DNA from: Leptospiraceae bacterium
Lineage (GTDB): Bacteria > Spirochaetota > Leptospiria > Turneriellales > Turneriellaceae
Reading direction: 5' to 3'
Length of the DNA: 64,000 bases
Assembly: GCA_025055765.1 (NCBI GenBank)
Contig: JANWWS010000033.1
Location: 62,001 to 126,000 of the forward strand
Positions within the stretch are counted from its first letter, which is position 1, and every line of letters starts with the position of its first letter. The notes beneath the pieces are model-generated. The model made no database searches and was not told where the DNA came from. It was given only the letters and a program-made list of their open reading frames with translations. The position numbers and the translations under genes were made by a program. Shown one piece after another: positions 24,571 through 32,683 of this stretch.

Positions 24571-27500
24571 TTACCAGAGGCTAGGGCTATGAGCCTGGCA
24601 CATTGGCTGGAAATTTGGCGGCAATGGATTGTAGGTAGTCTGGATAGAGGGGGATAGATGGTCTCCGCAGCCAATGAGCACCACGAGGTCTGTAAGGTTG
24701 GTCGTATCGCTGTTAAGCATGTTCACCACTGTATCCACAGAGGCTGCAGAAAGATTGTTAAGCACTGCCTGTGCCAGATGGCTCACACCAATCCCTGGGT
24801 AGTCACGGTAACCTATGGGGGCTGTAGTGTAGCCACCACTGTTATGCCGTACACCGCTATTTGTCTGTACTATCATACGCACCATGGCTTCTCGGGTGGA
24901 TATATTCGGCCCTGTACTATTATAGTTAATAGCGTTGGCCCCCTTATCCACGCTGGTAAGGATATGGGCCAGTCGTCCCACAGCGTGGTTTAAGACCAAA
25001 CGCGAAACACTTCCTGATGAAACAATAGCGGCAGGCTGCTGAAGGGCAGGTGTGCAGGAAGAAAGGCCACTTATCGTAACGCTCACCGTTGCTCCACAGC
25101 CGGCGCCTCCTGAGGTAAGCCTTACGCCTAGAAGCCCTCCGTCGTGCATGATCGCTGTTGCTGTTGGCGCCGTGGCACAGCCGGTAAAGTTAATGCTGGG
25201 TGTGCCTGTGCAGTTTGCTACTGCATTTACTGCCGATTGGCCAATTAGGGCACTGAGGTTTGCAGTGCCAAGTCCTCCCGGAAGAGAATTAGGATTATGG
25301 TTATAGGTGGAGGGAGGATTAGGTAAGAGTTGGGCAATCAGGGTGTGGTCTGCATGGGCATTGGTGTTACTACCCACTTCAGCAGCATTCCCAATCATAT
25401 TTACTAAAATAGCTAGCTTCTTCATATCCGGATTTGCTGTCGTGTTTTGCAGTGTGTTCAATAAATTTACCATAAGGTTTACATTTGCCCCATTACTGTT
25501 GGTCAGTACGGCATTAATGAGGCCAACGAGGTTGCTACTGTTGCCTACACCATTTGTGAGCATTACTATTTTCTGTATATCTGTCACATCCTTGAGCAGA
25601 GTTGCTAACTGCTGCATGGCATCTTCACCATCATCATCGCGAACATAATCAATTAAATTTACCAACTTTCCCATGCCGGTGGCGTTTTGTCTTGAGCCTG
25701 CGGCGGCATCCCAGTTGTTAGGACCGAGAGTCCCGTTAATTAATGCTGCGAGTTTACCTGTACCCTGGGTGGCGGTTGCTCCAATATCCATGAAATTAAT
25801 CAATCGGCCCATTTTGTTAATGGAGCTCACCTGATTAACCAAAAAGTTTAGTTGGTTGATGTTTGTGACGTTATCCACCACTTTAGCTAATTTTTTGCCT
25901 GCTGCTTGCTCATCGTTGTTGTTTGCATCATCTTTTTGTGAACCAACAGCTACTATGTTGACCAAATTGCGGATATTTGTTGGGGAGATATTGTTGATCA
26001 TAGATACGAGTTTGGCAGGGTCCGCCACATTTTCAATTAAGTAGACTAGTGTCACCACCGCGGTCTTACGTCCAAAGGGTGCGCCGGGAGGGGCTCCCCA
26101 GACGTGGCCTGCTGCTTCGCATGCCGCTTGGGTAGGATGCCCGGGCACTCCGTCGCTACAGCCATCTACTTCGCTTGCCTTAAAAATGCCGTTTATAATG
26201 GCAGAGAGGTTTGTGGTTAGTGTAACATCATTTATGAGATCCACAACCTTGCATACATTAGTGACCCCATTAATGATGTCTCTCGTCTTGATTGTTCCTT
26301 CTTGAAGGGGGTCGAGGTTTGAGATAAGCACCTGCAGCTTGCCAAGGTAACTGCTTTGTTGTGCCGCGTTCGCAGCAGCACATGGGGTAGGATCTGCCCC
26401 AAGCCGTCTTCCATCGACAAGTCGCCTCAGACGAGGAATATTTGCTAAGGAAACTTCGTTTATAATAGATGCTAGCTTGCCAACATCGGTATGTACAATG
26501 ATGTTGGTAATGGCGCCTCCTGATATGGTGGCGGTAATGCTAGCTCCGGTTCCTGCGGGCGTAAAGGAAAAGGTGGGGTTTGTACAGCCACTGCCTCCAT
26601 TTGTGATGCTCATGAAGACCAGCTTGCCACCATGTCCGTAATAAGTTCCACTAGCTGGTGTTGTACAGCCTGAAGCGGTGGTCCAGCTACCCGTCACACC
26701 GTAGCCACTTGTTCCACTAAGGGCTGACATACTGTTAAGGAGGGTGGTGACATCCCCTATGGTATTGACATCCTGGATTAAGCGAACAAGCTTATCCATA
26801 TCTGAAATACCGTCAATCAAAGCAATTAGCTTTTGGTAGTCGCTTGTTGTATCACTGTCTTCGGCACTATCGGTGAGGTTGTTTATGGTGGCCACCAAGC
26901 GGGGGACCGCTGAATTTGCGGAATGGGGATTTCCCTTCGTGGTAGCCGAACCCGCCCACGTTTGCGGCCCCCCTATTTGGCCTGTCCAGGTTGAACCATC
27001 TTCTGCCTTGTTGATGAGCTGGCCTAACCTAGTGGGGGAGCTAATGTTATCTATGATGGCAATCAAAGTACTCAACGATGAGACCTGATTTACTATATAA
27101 CCCACCTTAGTGGCATTGGTCACCGTGTTTAAAATGGCCACTAGTTTGCTGACATCACTGACATCTTTTATTACAGTGACCATATTGCCAAGGGTGCTTA
27201 CACTTTCTAGTGCTTCAATAAGCCGGTCAGCATTTGTGGTATCTTTTATAAGAGCTCCCAGCTTGCTGACTTTGGTGGTATCGGGCGTGGCACCCCAATT
27301 TGCATGCTTTAGCAAATCACAGATTTTGACGCAGCTTGATGTCCCCGAGTCTACGTGTGCTAATATCCGGGCCATGCGTTGCATGCGGGGAGTATCTTGA
27401 GCATTTTGCATCCCCCGGCTTATATCAAGTCCTGTACCACCACTAGGCCCGCCCATGAGAGGTATAATGAGATTTTGTATTTCTGCAAGGGTTAGGGAGT

Positions 27501-27957
27501 TCACTAGACTTGCGATATTTGCGATGGTATCGTTGTCCGCTGGGGGAGAAGCAGGAGCATTCCAGGCTGCACCTACGGGCAGGTTAGCGCTCATATTCGA
27601 AAGGATGGCGGCATCTGTTTCTAGCAAAAGCCTTAGAATGCGGACAACACCGAGCCCTGTTGCTGGGGGTCCATCGTTACCAATAAGGGCAACCAGCTTA
27701 TTCGCATCCGACACAGCGTTGACTAGTTGTACGATGTTGGAGACCCCTGCTCCATAACTAAGAGCATTCAAGGATTCAAGACCTATTCCTGTAAGTAGTA
27801 TGTTGGCCTTCTCCTGCCCTAATAGACGGCGCCATTCCTCTGTGCTTAATGTGCGCCCACTATCTTTTCGGCGGTTTTCCTCAAAAGGTGTTAGCTTTTG
27901 TTGGGTGCAATAAGATGCCACCAGCAACAGGATAAAAAACCCTATCCTGAAATTCAT
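24571..27957 (-). CDS. giant exported repeat protein with about 25 copies of a 13-residue KLVxLINxVSxxx motif
   Basis: This 1128-aa protein is not recognised. It has a signal sequence (MNFRIGFFILLLVASYC) whose cysteine may be lipidated, although Tyr at -1 is unusual for a lipobox. From about residue 70 to the end it is built from a degenerate 13-residue unit, [KR]L[VA]x[LI][IL][ND]x[VI][ST]xxx, with six or more copies in strict tandem at about 240-330 (for example KLVAILNTVTNAT and KVGYIVNQVSSLS). Two beta-type inserts interrupt it, near 430-500 and 960-1020, both rich in GGSGC and TATISGG. A GGAGG ribosome site precedes the ATG at 27957. A surface-exposed solenoid is my inference. Confidence 0.75.
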   Translation of the reverse strand: MNFRIGFFILLLVASYCTQQKLTPFEENRRKDSGRTLSTEEWRRLLGQEKANILLTGIGLESLNALSYGAGVSNIVQLVNAVSDANKLVALIGNDGPPATGLGVVRILRLLLETDAAILSNMSANLPVGAAWNAPASPPADNDTIANIASLVNSLTLAEIQNLIIPLMGGPSGGTGLDISRGMQNAQDTPRMQRMARILAHVDSGTSSCVKICDLLKHANWGATPDTTKVSKLGALIKDTTNADRLIEALESVSTLGNMVTVIKDVSDVSKLVAILNTVTNATKVGYIVNQVSSLSTLIAIIDNISSPTRLGQLINKAEDGSTWTGQIGGPQTWAGSATTKGNPHSANSAVPRLVATINNLTDSAEDSDTTSDYQKLIALIDGISDMDKLVRLIQDVNTIGDVTTLLNSMSALSGTSGYGVTGSWTTASGCTTPASGTYYGHGGKLVFMSITNGGSGCTNPTFSFTPAGTGASITATISGGAITNIIVHTDVGKLASIINEVSLANIPRLRRLVDGRRLGADPTPCAAANAAQQSSYLGKLQVLISNLDPLQEGTIKTRDIINGVTNVCKVVDLINDVTLTTNLSAIINGIFKASEVDGCSDGVPGHPTQAACEAAGHVWGAPPGAPFGRKTAVVTLVYLIENVADPAKLVSMINNISPTNIRNLVNIVAVGSQKDDANNNDEQAAGKKLAKVVDNVTNINQLNFLVNQVSSINKMGRLINFMDIGATATQGTGKLAALINGTLGPNNWDAAAGSRQNATGMGKLVNLIDYVRDDDGEDAMQQLATLLKDVTDIQKIVMLTNGVGNSSNLVGLINAVLTNSNGANVNLMVNLLNTLQNTTANPDMKKLAILVNMIGNAAEVGSNTNAHADHTLIAQLLPNPPSTYNHNPNSLPGGLGTANLSALIGQSAVNAVANCTGTPSINFTGCATAPTATAIMHDGGLLGVRLTSGGAGCGATVSVTISGLSSCTPALQQPAAIVSSGSVSRLVLNHAVGRLAHILTSVDKGANAINYNSTGPNISTREAMVRMIVQTNSGVRHNSGGYTTAPIGYRDYPGIGVSHLAQAVLNNLSAASVDTVVNMLNSDTTNLTDLVVLIGCGDHLSPSIQTTYNPLPPNFQPMCQAHSPSLW

Positions 27958-28062: not shown

Positions 28063-31017
28063 TCAATATCCATAGCTGCAATCCCCACTTATGAGATCAT
28101 CGGCACAGTTTAAGTTAATGCGGCTTAATCTGCCATTGTATGTAGCTGTCATATAGAGATATCTTTTTGAGGCAAGGGACTGAGAGGTGGGTACAAAGAG
28201 GACTGCCTGGGGCTCGAGGTACCACGTAGGAAGATAGTGCATACCTCCTTTTAGAGGATCAACAGGGGGGCTATGGTCCTCATTTTGCCAGGCCAGATGT
28301 CCTCCGCCAAGCCAGTGGCTCTCTCCTGTGCTGATTTTACGCCGCACTATCCTTTGGTTCCTACGATCCGCAATATATAGATAGGTCCCGTCACTTGTCA
28401 CATCTTGTGGGGAGGAGAAGCGATTTCGTTGAACTCCTGCTGGGGTAGGATGGTTTCCCCAACCTTGAAAATCACCTCCCAACCATTGGAAGTGAGTGGC
28501 ATCGTATCCTGTTTTCTTAATTCTCACAATACGATGGTTGCCACTATCGGCAACATAGAGGTATTGGGAATCACCCCCTATACCTGTGGGCTCTCTGAAA
28601 AAGCAGGAGGTACTACCCGCATGAGGGCTTTGCCCTGCGCTTGAGTTTTCCCAGCCATTACACGAGGTTGGTCTCCCATTGCCTATGTAAGCTTCAAAAG
28701 CCCCCGTGGTGAGATTGCGCCGCACAAGTCGACGCCCGCCGTAATTTACCACATAAAGCGCGTTATTTGCCTCATCTACATAGATTCCCCATGGTATGTA
28801 GAACATAGTCACATCATATTCATAGTTGGAGAGCAAATAAAGCTCGTCCCGGCTCATTGGAGGCTGGGTGCCTGTCCCAACTGTTGCCCGACAAGAGGAT
28901 GCTGCGGGCGAAAAGGGTTCACACTGCCAATGGTCGTTTATACTTTTGGGCAGTCCCAGCCAGGCAATGAAACGGCCGTCTTTATCATATTTTACCACCC
29001 GCATATTACCACTGTCAGCTACGTAAAGATTTCCCGCGCTGTCTGTGGCAAGTCCACGTGGTTCAAAGAAACTGCGTCGACAATGGTTATTTACAAAACG
29101 ACCTGGTCCCCAATGGTAGCCATCTAATAGCTCAGAGTCAAAAGTGCAATCTAAGGTTAACTCCCCCAATCGCCCTTGAAAGGCCCCGTCTGCGGCTCTA
29201 TAGCGGCTAACCGCCATGTTAATGTAGTCAGCCACATAAAGGAAGCCCGTAGTGCCATCTCGATAAAAAGCAATCCCCGCTGGACGGTAAAAGAAACCAG
29301 CTTCATTACCCCAAGGAGCTCCCTGATCCGTCTGCCAACCATCTTGACCTCCACCCACCCACGAAGAATGGTTTCTCTCATCCACGGGGAGATTTCCTAC
29401 AGGAAGACAGTTACTGTCTGTTGTGGCATTGTACACAATAATATGGTATACCTGGCATGGGTCAAAAAGGTCTGGTGGAATATTTTGGCTTGCCCTAAAA
29501 AGATGGAGTTTGGCATCCCCGTGGTAGGGGATTTCACTGTATGTATTAATGATAAAACCAAGCGCCGGATGCGTTCCCCTGTTAGTAGGGTTGTAGGGAG
29601 AATCTAAGAATTTGGGCTGTGCACCCGGACAACTGTCACTGGGGCCATTGTGCGTGTAGCGAAAAGTAAAGTAGGAAAACCCTTTGATGCACGATGGTGC
29701 TTCATAAGACACGGCCAGGCTTGAAGGCAAAAACGAAAGTCCCCCCTCACCTGCGGGCATGAGCCCAATTCCTCTATACGACAGTTCATATTTGCGTGAC
29801 CCAGGGCCGCCATCCCCCAAATTTATGGCGCTGCCATCTTCACGGATGAGGGTCGTTAGATTTTTACCCGCCTGGCTAAGGTAGCTTGAAATCACATAAT
29901 CACGGTAGAGGTCGGAAAAGCTACCACCGTTAACTTGATTCACAAGGGGCCATAGTCCCATAAGATCAGGGTTTTCCACAATGACGAGCTGGCGAAAGCC
30001 TATTTCTGCAGAAGGGCCCAGGCGGTGACGTAGATAAGAGAAAAAAAAGAGTGATTGTACATATCCGGTGCCTCCCTCTTTAAATTCCAAGAGGGAGGGA
30101 GCCTTTTGCAACTCTGCCTGGATGAGAGGAGAGGCATGCAAAGTAAGCCTCTCCTGAAAAGCCGAGGTGGTGTTCGCCACAAGGTGGGGGGCATTCTCGG
30201 CCATTCCCTCAGCTATCCACAGATCATGAATTTTAAGCCTCTCTCGAGTTACCCGGCGGTACCAGGTGAACAGATGAGAAAGCTCGTGCAAAACCACATC
30301 TTTGAGATAGTTTCTCGCCAAAGCGCTTTGGTTATCAAAGGCCACACCATTGTACGTGGGATTGAGATCAATGTAGACGAGAGCATTTTCATTAGAGCGC
30401 CCACGCAAAAGCTGAACAGTAGGGGGCTCATAGCGGGATATGAGCAAGGGGGACAGATATAGACCTCTCGTAAATTCATCAGAAAATAAATCGCGCGGTG
30501 AAAAGAATCCCGCGATAAACTGACCCGTCTTCGTATAGTCATCTCTAATATCCGTGGCGAGAATAACAATTCTCTGGTAGGGATGAATTTCGGGAAAATA
30601 ATTATCTCCATAAACTCGCTTTAGCTTTGGCAGGTGGACCTCAAAGAAATCGAGGAATTGCTGTGCCTCGCTTGCTGGCATGAGGGTGGCATAGGAGCTG
30701 TCTCTATAAAGTACAAAGTGTTCACTTAGAGCAAGTTTTTGGGCTTCTATTTGGTAAAAACCGTCAAGAGAAGGGCTAGCCTCCTGTCTACGATCTCGTA
30801 GCCAAAAGAGGGCCTGGGCAGGACCTCCTTCTAGGCCCGTACCCGGAAGACCTGTGCGAGGAGTAATAGATGGAAGGGGTAGCTCTTCCCCTAATGCTTG
30901 TTGAAAAATAACCTCACCAGGAAGAGAGCAGCGAACCCAAAACACAAAAACAAAAAAAAAGAGAAAACAAATATTTTTCTCTTGGCACCATGCCCTGCGA
31001 AATGATCTTGCGCCCAT
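28063..31017 (-). CDS. exported HExxH metalloprotease with C-terminal six-unit NHL propeller
   Basis: This 984-aa protein starts with a basic stretch and a hydrophobic segment ending in FVFWVRC, a possible lipoprotein or uncleaved anchor. The zinc motif HELSH is near residues 244-248, and WIAEGMAEN about 22 residues later supplies the third ligand, a gluzincin layout resembling M30-type peptidases. The last 420 residues contain six NHL-like units, each with a LYVADSGNHRIV-type strand, which should form a six-bladed propeller. The open frame extends to a TTG at 31071, but the ATG at 31017, after GGAACTAAGA, gives a more usual signal sequence. It lies 105 bases upstream of the repeat-protein gene, on the same strand. 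Confidence 0.82.
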   Translation of the reverse strand: MGARSFRRAWCQEKNICFLFFFVFVFWVRCSLPGEVIFQQALGEELPLPSITPRTGLPGTGLEGGPAQALFWLRDRRQEASPSLDGFYQIEAQKLALSEHFVLYRDSSYATLMPASEAQQFLDFFEVHLPKLKRVYGDNYFPEIHPYQRIVILATDIRDDYTKTGQFIAGFFSPRDLFSDEFTRGLYLSPLLISRYEPPTVQLLRGRSNENALVYIDLNPTYNGVAFDNQSALARNYLKDVVLHELSHLFTWYRRVTRERLKIHDLWIAEGMAENAPHLVANTTSAFQERLTLHASPLIQAELQKAPSLLEFKEGGTGYVQSLFFFSYLRHRLGPSAEIGFRQLVIVENPDLMGLWPLVNQVNGGSFSDLYRDYVISSYLSQAGKNLTTLIREDGSAINLGDGGPGSRKYELSYRGIGLMPAGEGGLSFLPSSLAVSYEAPSCIKGFSYFTFRYTHNGPSDSCPGAQPKFLDSPYNPTNRGTHPALGFIINTYSEIPYHGDAKLHLFRASQNIPPDLFDPCQVYHIIVYNATTDSNCLPVGNLPVDERNHSSWVGGGQDGWQTDQGAPWGNEAGFFYRPAGIAFYRDGTTGFLYVADYINMAVSRYRAADGAFQGRLGELTLDCTFDSELLDGYHWGPGRFVNNHCRRSFFEPRGLATDSAGNLYVADSGNMRVVKYDKDGRFIAWLGLPKSINDHWQCEPFSPAASSCRATVGTGTQPPMSRDELYLLSNYEYDVTMFYIPWGIYVDEANNALYVVNYGGRRLVRRNLTTGAFEAYIGNGRPTSCNGWENSSAGQSPHAGSTSCFFREPTGIGGDSQYLYVADSGNHRIVRIKKTGYDATHFQWLGGDFQGWGNHPTPAGVQRNRFSSPQDVTSDGTYLYIADRRNQRIVRRKISTGESHWLGGGHLAWQNEDHSPPVDPLKGGMHYLPTWYLEPQAVLFVPTSQSLASKRYLYMTATYNGRLSRINLNCADDLISGDCSYGY

Positions 31018-31197
31018 TCTTAGTTCCAACGAGCGAAACCGATATACTGTTATATAGAAGTTAGACGACAAAACCGAGAAAAAGTCAAGTTTTTTTCGAT
31101 AAGGACTTGTCTAACAAATTCTTTTGTTTGCCCCTTGGTGAAACAGCCCCTGTCAGAAACGAGGGGAGGCCTAATTTCTAGGAACAGAGCTTTTTGC

Positions 31198-31377
31198 ATG
31201 ACAAAATCGAACTGGATAGCGCTCTTTTTCCCGCTTTACTGTGGGTTAGCTGTGTTTTCCTTGGCTTCCCATGCAGAAAAATCGGTGGATAACCCATTCC
31301 CACGGTTTGGTAAAAAAGGGATTTGTCCTAATTATCGCCTTGGCTTTAATTATCCTGAGTTGTGTGTCACACGTTGA
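31198..31377 (+). CDS. possible small exported protein overlapping the next gene out of frame
   Basis: A frame from the ATG at 31198 encodes 59 residues with a convincing signal peptide (MTKSNWIALFFPLYCGLAVF followed by SLASHA). Its mature part then overlaps the next gene in a different frame and ends without any recognisable domain. It may be a true small exported peptide, a chance frame, or the original N terminus of the next gene separated by a frameshift. No clear ribosome site precedes it. Confidence 0.25.
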   Translation: MTKSNWIALFFPLYCGLAVFSLASHAEKSVDNPFPRFGKKGICPNYRLGFNYPELCVTR

Positions 31378-31663
31378 AGAAAGTGAGGAAATTAAAGTTT
31401 ACCCTAATCCCTATAGGCCCACCGCAGGTTTTTTGACCATTAAAGATAAAAACGGGAATTCCTTGGGCAATCACGTTGAGCTTATCGTGTACACCCAAAA
31501 CTACGAAGAAGTATACCGTGGCAGACTGCAAAATGACAAGTACGCTGGCATCGACAACCAGGGGGAGCCATTGCGCTCCGGTCTTTATATGCTGAAAATT
31601 ATACAAATAGAACATGGGCAAGAAAAAATTATGAGTTATGCCTATAGACTCGTGGTCGAATAG
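31271..31663 (+). CDS. small lipoprotein with FlgD/sorting-tail-like Ig domain
   Basis: This protein of up to 130 aa carries a lipoprotein signal (VKKGFVLIIALALIILSC, lipobox LILSC at about residues 28-31). The mature domain begins IKVYPNPYRPTAGFLTIKD and ends PLRSGLYMLKII followed by YRLVVE. This matches FlgD Ig-like domains and the type A C-terminal tail of type IX secretion cargo (VYPNP...SGxYxxxI). Here it stands alone as a lipoprotein. The start is uncertain: ATG at 31271, or the TTG at 31307 just before VKKGF, which gives a cleaner signal. The PorV-like gene follows 9 bases later. Confidence 0.72.
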   Translation: MQKNRWITHSHGLVKKGFVLIIALALIILSCVSHVEESEEIKVYPNPYRPTAGFLTIKDKNGNSLGNHVELIVYTQNYEEVYRGRLQNDKYAGIDNQGEPLRSGLYMLKIIQIEHGQEKIMSYAYRLVVE

Positions 31664-31672
31664 GGAGGTAAA

Positions 31673-32683
31673 ATGCGTAGCTTCCTTTTAGCGCTGGGTG
31701 TTTTTCTCACAACATCCCAGGCTGCCGAATTTTTAAAAACCAACTTTGGAGCCCGCTCTGTGGCTCTGGGCAATGCTTACGGGGTAATCGTAAACGATCC
31801 CTCAGCCCTCCACTGGAACCCAGCTGGTCTTGCCAATATCACGGGAGAGAAAACCACCATCAGGAAATTAGAGGATATCACGCGGGAGGCTGAGTCCGCC
31901 TTCGAAGAGAAAGAGTTTTCGGAATTTCTTGAGGAAAAGGAAAAATCCCAGGGTCCTCAAAGTGTGGCACGTACGGAGAGAGGTTTTGAACTTCAATGGT
32001 ACAACGCAGCGGCCTTTCTGCCCATGAACGGTTATACGGGATTTTCGGGAATTGGTCTTACGGCCTTGGGTGGCACTTTAGGGGCGGCCGCCTATGGTGC
32101 TCTTTCCCAGCGTATACAGGCATACGACAGTGCAGGAAATGCTGTCGCCTCCCGGGATTTCCGGGCTCTGGCTGCCTATCTAGGCTATGCCCGGCAAAGC
32201 GGTGCCTTGCGATGGGGGTTTAGTCTCATGGGTCTTGAAGAGGGCATGCAGCGCCGCCGTCAAGGCGGCGGTGTCCATATTGGTGCTCAGATGATTCCCA
32301 TTCCCATCTTATCGGCAGGGATTGCACTGCAAAATTTAGTGGGAGCTGTGCAAAAAGAAGCCAGCAATAACCAAAAATGGGAAAAATTAGATACCCTGCT
32401 GCGTTTTTCCTTTGCCATAACCACACCACCACCGCAAGCAAATATGAAGATTATCTTTGGCTTTACCTCAAATTTGGACCGTCGTCAAGAAGCTGTACGG
32501 ATGAATCTGGGCCTGGCCTATAGCCTAAGCCAATATCTCTACCTCATGTTTGGTTTGGATCACGGCAATCCTGCTACTGGGCTGGGTATTATGGTAAGAC
32601 CGCTCCACCTTGCCTATGCGGTAAACCGTGACAGCGTTTTTGGTACTCTACAGCATTATGTAGAATTAAACCTAACATTCTAG
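31673..32683 (+). CDS. PorV/UPF0164-family outer-membrane beta-barrel protein
   Basis: This 336-aa protein has a cleavable signal peptide ending in SQAAEF. The conserved start TNFGARSVALGNAYGVIVND followed by PSALHWNPAGLA is the hallmark of the PorV/UPF0164 group of FadL-like barrels. Alternating hydrophobic stretches continue to the end, and the last residue is Phe (VELNLTF), the usual barrel terminus. PorV in Bacteroidota is the type IX secretion shuttle, and the UPF0164 relatives in spirochaetes have no established role. A GGGAGG ribosome site precedes the ATG. It forms a pair with the sorting-tail-like lipoprotein gene upstream; folP follows 2 bases after the stop. Confidence 0.83.
   Translation: MRSFLLALGVFLTTSQAAEFLKTNFGARSVALGNAYGVIVNDPSALHWNPAGLANITGEKTTIRKLEDITREAESAFEEKEFSEFLEEKEKSQGPQSVARTERGFELQWYNAAAFLPMNGYTGFSGIGLTALGGTLGAAAYGALSQRIQAYDSAGNAVASRDFRALAAYLGYARQSGALRWGFSLMGLEEGMQRRRQGGGVHIGAQMIPIPILSAGIALQNLVGAVQKEASNNQKWEKLDTLLRFSFAITTPPPQANMKIIFGFTSNLDRRQEAVRMNLGLAYSLSQYLYLMFGLDHGNPATGLGIMVRPLHLAYAVNRDSVFGTLQHYVELNLTF
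32252..32270. repeat. GC-rich 7-bp inverted repeat inside the PorV-like gene
   Basis: CGCCGCC and GGCGGCG flank a GTCAA loop. In frame it encodes the RRRQGG stretch, so it may reflect coding only. No T-run follows. Confidence 0.5.

Follow-up and report, generated by a model that had tools for sequence, protein, structure and literature searches.

Helical repeat proteins of the HEAT, ARM, TPR, PPR, Sel1, and LRV families are built from units of 24 to 45 residues. Among systems that link lipoprotein genes to genes for outer-membrane barrels, SusC-type transporters are much larger than the barrels of about 300 residues considered here, and Slam, which has a TPR domain, is likewise larger than those barrels (designated OmpI and OmpII below). 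The envelope of the Turneriella branch of spirochetes is little studied. The Slam lipoprotein export system has been described (PMC9090332), and in Leptospira, lipidation predicted from sequence does not reveal the destination of a lipoprotein (PMC2698987). Turneriella, together with Pseudomonas, has been linked to tumors in Hydra (PMC7081986).

The window analyzed here is a stretch of 64,000 nucleotides from a member of the Turneriellaceae (GenBank assembly GCA_025055765.1, contig JANWWS010000033.1, positions 62,001 to 126,000). A preliminary description of this DNA had given, correctly, the coordinates and length of an open reading frame for a giant repeat protein, leaving unstated that it lies on the minus strand. 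We call this protein gB. Its features and those of its neighbor, in window coordinates, are as follows.

24571-27957, minus strand: giant repeat lipoprotein gB, 1,128 amino acids (open reading frame; gB branch of the tree, support 97/98)
27907-27957, minus strand: predicted signal peptide and lipobox, residues 1 to 17, MNFRIGFFILLLVASYC (from the sequence)
26992-27264, minus strand: strict tandem of 13-residue repeats, predicted as single helices, residues 232 to 322 (periodicity z = 6.2; AlphaFold2 helices)
26488-26727, minus strand: inserted beta-module 1, residues ~411 to 490 (six strands in a low-confidence model)
25243-26484, minus strand: second helical repeat region, residues ~492 to 905 (motif positions, helical moment z = 4.0, secondary structure)
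24988-25242, minus strand: inserted beta-module 2, GGSGYT type, residues ~906 to 990 (insert accounting)
24574-24987, minus strand: C-terminal domain, residues 991 to 1128, common to gA and gB (55% identity with the gA of the same genome)
28063-31071, minus strand: NHL-propeller/metalloprotease lipoprotein, 1,002 amino acids from the first possible start (Pfam NHL, E = 1.6e-20)
30274-30288, minus strand: HELSH zinc-binding motif, residues 262 to 266 of the protease partner (homologue alignment)

The 13-residue repeat of gB

The preliminary description had counted a recurring motif about 25 times in gB, with a strict 13-residue period at about residues 240 to 330, and both observations held up. 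A relaxed core motif ([LMIV]xx[LIVM][IVLMA][NDEK]x[VILMT], position 2 restricted to VIAGSTNRKQ) occurred 27 times, versus 1.4 ± 1.2 in composition shuffles (maximum of 7 in 1,000 shuffles), and seven motif pairs were exactly 13 residues apart, versus a shuffle mean of 0.0015 (maximum of 1 in 2,000 shuffles). Chance low complexity was ruled out by the shuffles as the source of the repeat. The strict tandem covers residues 232 to 322, with the units KLGALIKDTTNAD, RLIEALESVSTLG, NMVTVIKDVSDVS, KLVAILNTVTNAT, KVGYIVNQVSSLS, TLIAIIDNISSPT, and RLGQLINKAEDGS, and the hydrophobic autocorrelation over residues 226 to 322 gave a z of 6.2 at lag 13, with −0.3 at lag 12 and −0.2 at lag 14. Outside this tract, the repeats are grouped about three at a time, as in the second helical region (residues ~492 to 905), with loops and the two beta-rich modules lying between groups. 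Twenty-eight family members yield the consensus [KN]-L-[VA]-x-L-I-N-x-V-T-x-x-S; their most common motif spacing is 13 (64 cases), and their motif density is 14 per 1,000 amino acids, versus 0.8 in the other open reading frames of more than 200 amino acids at the same loci.

A solenoid of either helical or beta type had been proposed, and it was the helical version that was borne out. Relative to shuffles, gB as a whole had a helical hydrophobic moment of z = 6.8 and a beta moment of −3.1. An AlphaFold2 model of residues 226 to 410, built with three relatives (pLDDT 67, pTM 0.72; pLDDT 77 to 86 in the tandem part), placed helices at segment positions 18-27, 31-40, 44-53, 57-66, 70-79, and 83-92, a unit of one 10-residue helix and one 3-residue turn every 13 residues. 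Regular tandem helices with a constant period, by which the alpha-solenoid class is recognized, are thus present in the modeled segment with a period of 13, and the model supports a regular alpha-solenoid with one helix per 13 residues between residues 226 and 410. Two of five segment models exceeded a pLDDT of 60, and the full-length model, made from four sequences, reached a pLDDT of 38 and is good for secondary structure alone.

No Pfam or NCBIfam repeat family matched gB up to E = 1, the HEAT, ARM, TPR, PPR, Sel1, and LRV models included, and none matched five of its relatives at 0.01. PHROGs yielded no gB match, and the family profile, when compared with PDB sequences, gave marginal matches only, with E values of at least 0.024, one of them to an M2-1 protein and another to a designed one. 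A PDB sequence match to a beta-module was rejected as a chance match. Foldseek comparison of the medium-confidence gB model with the PDB produced no significant match (best E = 0.96, TM 0.30), the second and likewise nonsignificant match being the designed helical repeat DHR8; against viral models, there was none at E ≤ 0.001, and resemblances to tape-measure proteins were nonsignificant. Neither the repeat nor the gene set described below was found in the literature, coverage of which was incomplete. The preliminary description had been unable to fit the repeat to a named class, and a Pfam search and a structure prediction, along the lines that it had proposed, returned no known family and a regular helical segment. 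Because no family or fold matched and the segment model was regular, a helical solenoid of no named class is supported.

The N terminus of gB, MNFRIGFFILLLVASYC, reads as a lipoprotein signal peptide with the lipobox VASYC17, in which Cys17 would be lipidated. The signal peptide and lipobox cysteine, by which spirochetal outer-membrane lipoproteins are recognized, were identified by eye, and most full-length family members likewise have an N-terminal hydrophobic stretch followed by Cys. Asp and Glu are absent at positions +2 to +4 after the Cys in gB and nearly all complete relatives. We therefore predict that gB is lipid anchored, and we infer that it resides at the outer membrane or cell surface, outer and inner leaflets being indistinguishable from sequence.

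Variable modules and the giant family

Two stretches of gB, residues ~411 to 490 and 906 to 990, are not helical. These beta-modules show 28 to 38% identity to the closest gB relatives (28 to 29% for module 1), versus 45 to 48% in the helical core. Module 1 is absent from gA, and module 2 is much longer in the relatives than in gB. Relatives also carry inserts of 20 to 91 residues at recurring sites, after residues 334, 751, 937, 952, and 969. GGSGYT modules from a related giant of the gA type resemble parts of cyanophage proteins, the inserts showing about 38 to 67% identity over 42 to 72 residues to cyanophage structural, baseplate, and tail proteins. Compact relatives, in genome G110 and in the 1.11-Mb cluster of G005, have no GGSGYT motifs in gA and gB, versus up to eight in the larger Turneriella giants, and the solenoid therefore appears to have grown by gaining GGSGYT-type modules through insertion.

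The family comprises at least 28 sequences of 696 to 2,099 amino acids. Relatives of gB occur in the same bacterial family and in one genome from another family of the order, and giants as a whole were found in 13 of 393 genomes from the phylum; one of these, G110, falls outside this class. All relatives found came from the same phylum; the preliminary description had held that matches confined to related spirochetes would favor novelty. Beyond the phylum, the search covered an insensitive pattern scan, phages (for one module), viral contigs, and plasmids; no giants were found on the viral contigs or plasmids. A single-sequence scan of genome contigs returned no relative, and an alignment scan of those contigs recovered three loci but neither G013 nor G110, which shows the method to be insensitive. 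In the tree, the gA and gB branches split with support of 97/98, and the window protein is a gB, basal to the Turneriella gBs; the giant at locus L049 is a gA by BLAST and a gB by tree.

The genome that holds the window encodes two further giants, a gA of 1,249 amino acids and, elsewhere, a gC of 1,814 amino acids. The C-terminal domain of gB (24574-24987) is 55% identical to that of its own-genome gA (L035:12714-16463) and about 40 to 43% identical to that of gB orthologues, which suggests either exchange between the two genes by gene conversion or a shared partner. The gC giant (L034:10433-15877, contig C49) has a distant OmpI-like protein of 320 amino acids nearby, along with a 196-amino-acid lipoprotein-like protein and a 484-amino-acid protein that recur beside gC at locus L042.

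A conserved gene set around the giants

Three genera, one of them outside this class, keep the gene order metalloprotease/NHL, gB, OmpI, OmpII, gA. It is complete in G005 (1.106 to 1.116 Mb) and G110, with gC giants upstream; in G003, the contig runs through protease, gB, OmpI, and OmpII and breaks off in the first part of gA, and in G013, halves of the set lie at two contig ends. Turneriella has the additional order gB, OmpIII, OmpIV, OmpI, OmpII, gA. The genome that holds the window has gB and the protease gene here and gA, OmpII, and OmpI on another contig, gB and gA not being neighbors. A gC giant is usually also present in genomes with the set. Synteny and the likeness of their C-terminal domains mean that gA and gB belong together.

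The phylum-wide search covered giants, protease, and OmpI. Of the 393 genomes, 11 had the protease and 12 had OmpI; all of these were among the 13 giant carriers, and neither gene was found in any other genome of the phylum, although related genomes are not independent. Giants, protease, and OmpI were all missing from G002 and G006, of the same family; the absence of a gene from an incomplete genome is weak evidence. G110, however, is a case apart: none of the other genomes among the 46 of its order carries the cluster. Its complete set (L073, G110:C93:40000-56000) lies in a stretch of 61.5% GC, versus 40 to 51% in the other lineages. A lone carrier among 46 genomes and this composition together fit transfer of the whole block. 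Contamination as the origin of the cluster is unlikely because its GC content differs from that of the other lineages, even though G110 stands alone as a carrier in its order.

Many OmpI and OmpII proteins end in QAGVVF- or GYTAGLF-like sequences with an aromatic or leucine terminus. Since they had no Pfam match and gave weak beta-moments (z mostly 0 to 2), their identity as outer-membrane beta-barrels is rated as probable.

A secreted metalloprotease gene had been noted beside gB, and the alignment agrees. The gene shares its strand with gB and lies 105 bp upstream of it, and HExxH plus a downstream Glu, the pattern of gluzincin-like metalloproteases, is present in its product and invariant in all seven aligned homologues; the neighbor at 28063-31071 is a metalloprotease-like protein of putative activity. 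The protease gene adjoins gB in G003, G005, G013, and G110. It is missing from the giant-bearing genomes G004 and G008, and paralogues stand alone in G005 and G007, and the protease may therefore have a role separate from the giants. Two protease/NHL paralogues (L074:6252-9416, without a Pfam match, and L075:8021-11416) have no giants alongside, and each lies beside a 516-amino-acid membrane-like protein. Next to the protease gene in the window is a divergent pair on the plus strand, a small lipoprotein-like product at 31271-31663 with weak likeness to a type IX secretion sorting domain (TIGR04183, E = 0.0023, below the cutoff) and a PorV/PorQ-like protein at 31673-32683 (NF033709, E = 5.6e-11, below the cutoff).

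The preliminary description mentioned neither the inserted beta-modules nor the large paralogous family nor the conserved gene set with its OMP-like barrels and metalloprotease. This gene set, apparently an undescribed one of the outer membrane, is the stronger finding.

Possible arrangement and comparison with known systems

The anatomy of the gene set and of the giants is well supported by what was computed, namely the lipobox, the helix-per-13 segment, gene order, co-occurrence, the protease motif, and the variable inserts; from these we infer function. Our tentative reading, which we hold at somewhat short of an even chance, is that lipid-anchored gA and gB solenoids, paired and docked on the barrels, make up a protease-processed outer-membrane scaffold for the display of variable modules. 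Both giants would leave the cytoplasm through Sec, receive a lipid anchor, and reach the outer membrane; there the solenoids would pair with each other and, docked on the two barrel proteins, build a long scaffold. The beta-modules, held in loops, would be the variable, surface-facing part, with a putative role in adhesion or recognition, and the metalloprotease would trim or remodel the assembly or its targets. It is possible, more tentatively, that this is a new multiprotein outer-membrane machine of spirochetes, with paired 13-residue-solenoid giants, phage-tail-like modules, two barrels, and a protease, encoded by a block mobile between distant lineages.

The anchors might instead lie in the inner leaflet, the solenoids crossing the periplasm to tether the barrels to peptidoglycan or the flagellar compartment. 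Lipoproteins linked to barrels often face the periplasm, rods of helical repeats fit tethers, and in Leptospira predicted lipidation leaves the destination undecided (PMC2698987), but variable, phage-tail-like beta-modules and turnover of inserts are seen more typically in exposed regions that serve recognition, and family searches of the giants found no peptidoglycan-binding domain; we consider such a periplasmic scaffold unlikely, though far from negligible. The conserved protease motif and the pairing of lipoproteins with barrels would also suit a Sus-like complex for nutrient capture, in which a polymer bound by the giants is cleaved by the protease/NHL lipoprotein and the products are taken up through the barrels. 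This is improbable, given about 300 mature residues per barrel, far below SusC-type transporters, and the lack of any Pfam transporter or binding domain in barrels or giants.

Strict linkage of the barrel genes with the giants is what would be expected of dedicated, Slam-like export factors whose cargo is matured by the protease. OmpI and OmpII, however, have neither the size nor the TPR domain of Slam, and two barrel types accompany each pair, which leaves this explanation quite improbable. A last alternative, that the giants are nothing more than lineage-specific lipoproteins whose repeat follows from composition and whose neighbors are there by chance, would agree with the narrow distribution and the lack of a known homologue, but the repeat lies far above shuffles and gene order and co-occurrence persist across three genera and 393 genomes, respectively, making it hardly credible.

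SusCD-like and Slam-dependent systems share with the gene set the linkage of lipoprotein genes to outer-membrane barrel genes, whereas here the barrels are small, the lipoproteins are solenoid giants, and a metalloprotease/NHL partner is added; no sequence relation was found, and no Pfam match to SusC, SusD, or Slam appeared in giants or barrels. The partner resembles HExxH-plus-Glu (gluzincin-like) metalloproteases with an NHL propeller in its HExxH...E pattern and NHL repeats and differs in combining them in a lipoprotein of 950 to 1,131 amino acids, with no Pfam or NCBIfam family other than NHL above the cutoff. Modules like those of cyanophages are here inserted as loops in a bacterial helical solenoid lipoprotein. 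The gene set is a discrete and testable outer-membrane system. Like the HEAT, ARM, TPR, PPR, Sel1, and LRV proteins, gB has tandem short amphipathic helices predicted to stack into an elongated rod, but its unit is 13 residues and one helix, whereas theirs span 24 to 45 residues. This unit is roughly half as large as the alpha-solenoid repeats common in nature and has no Pfam, NCBIfam, or PDB match, and gB would therefore widen the range of helical repeat architectures known so far.
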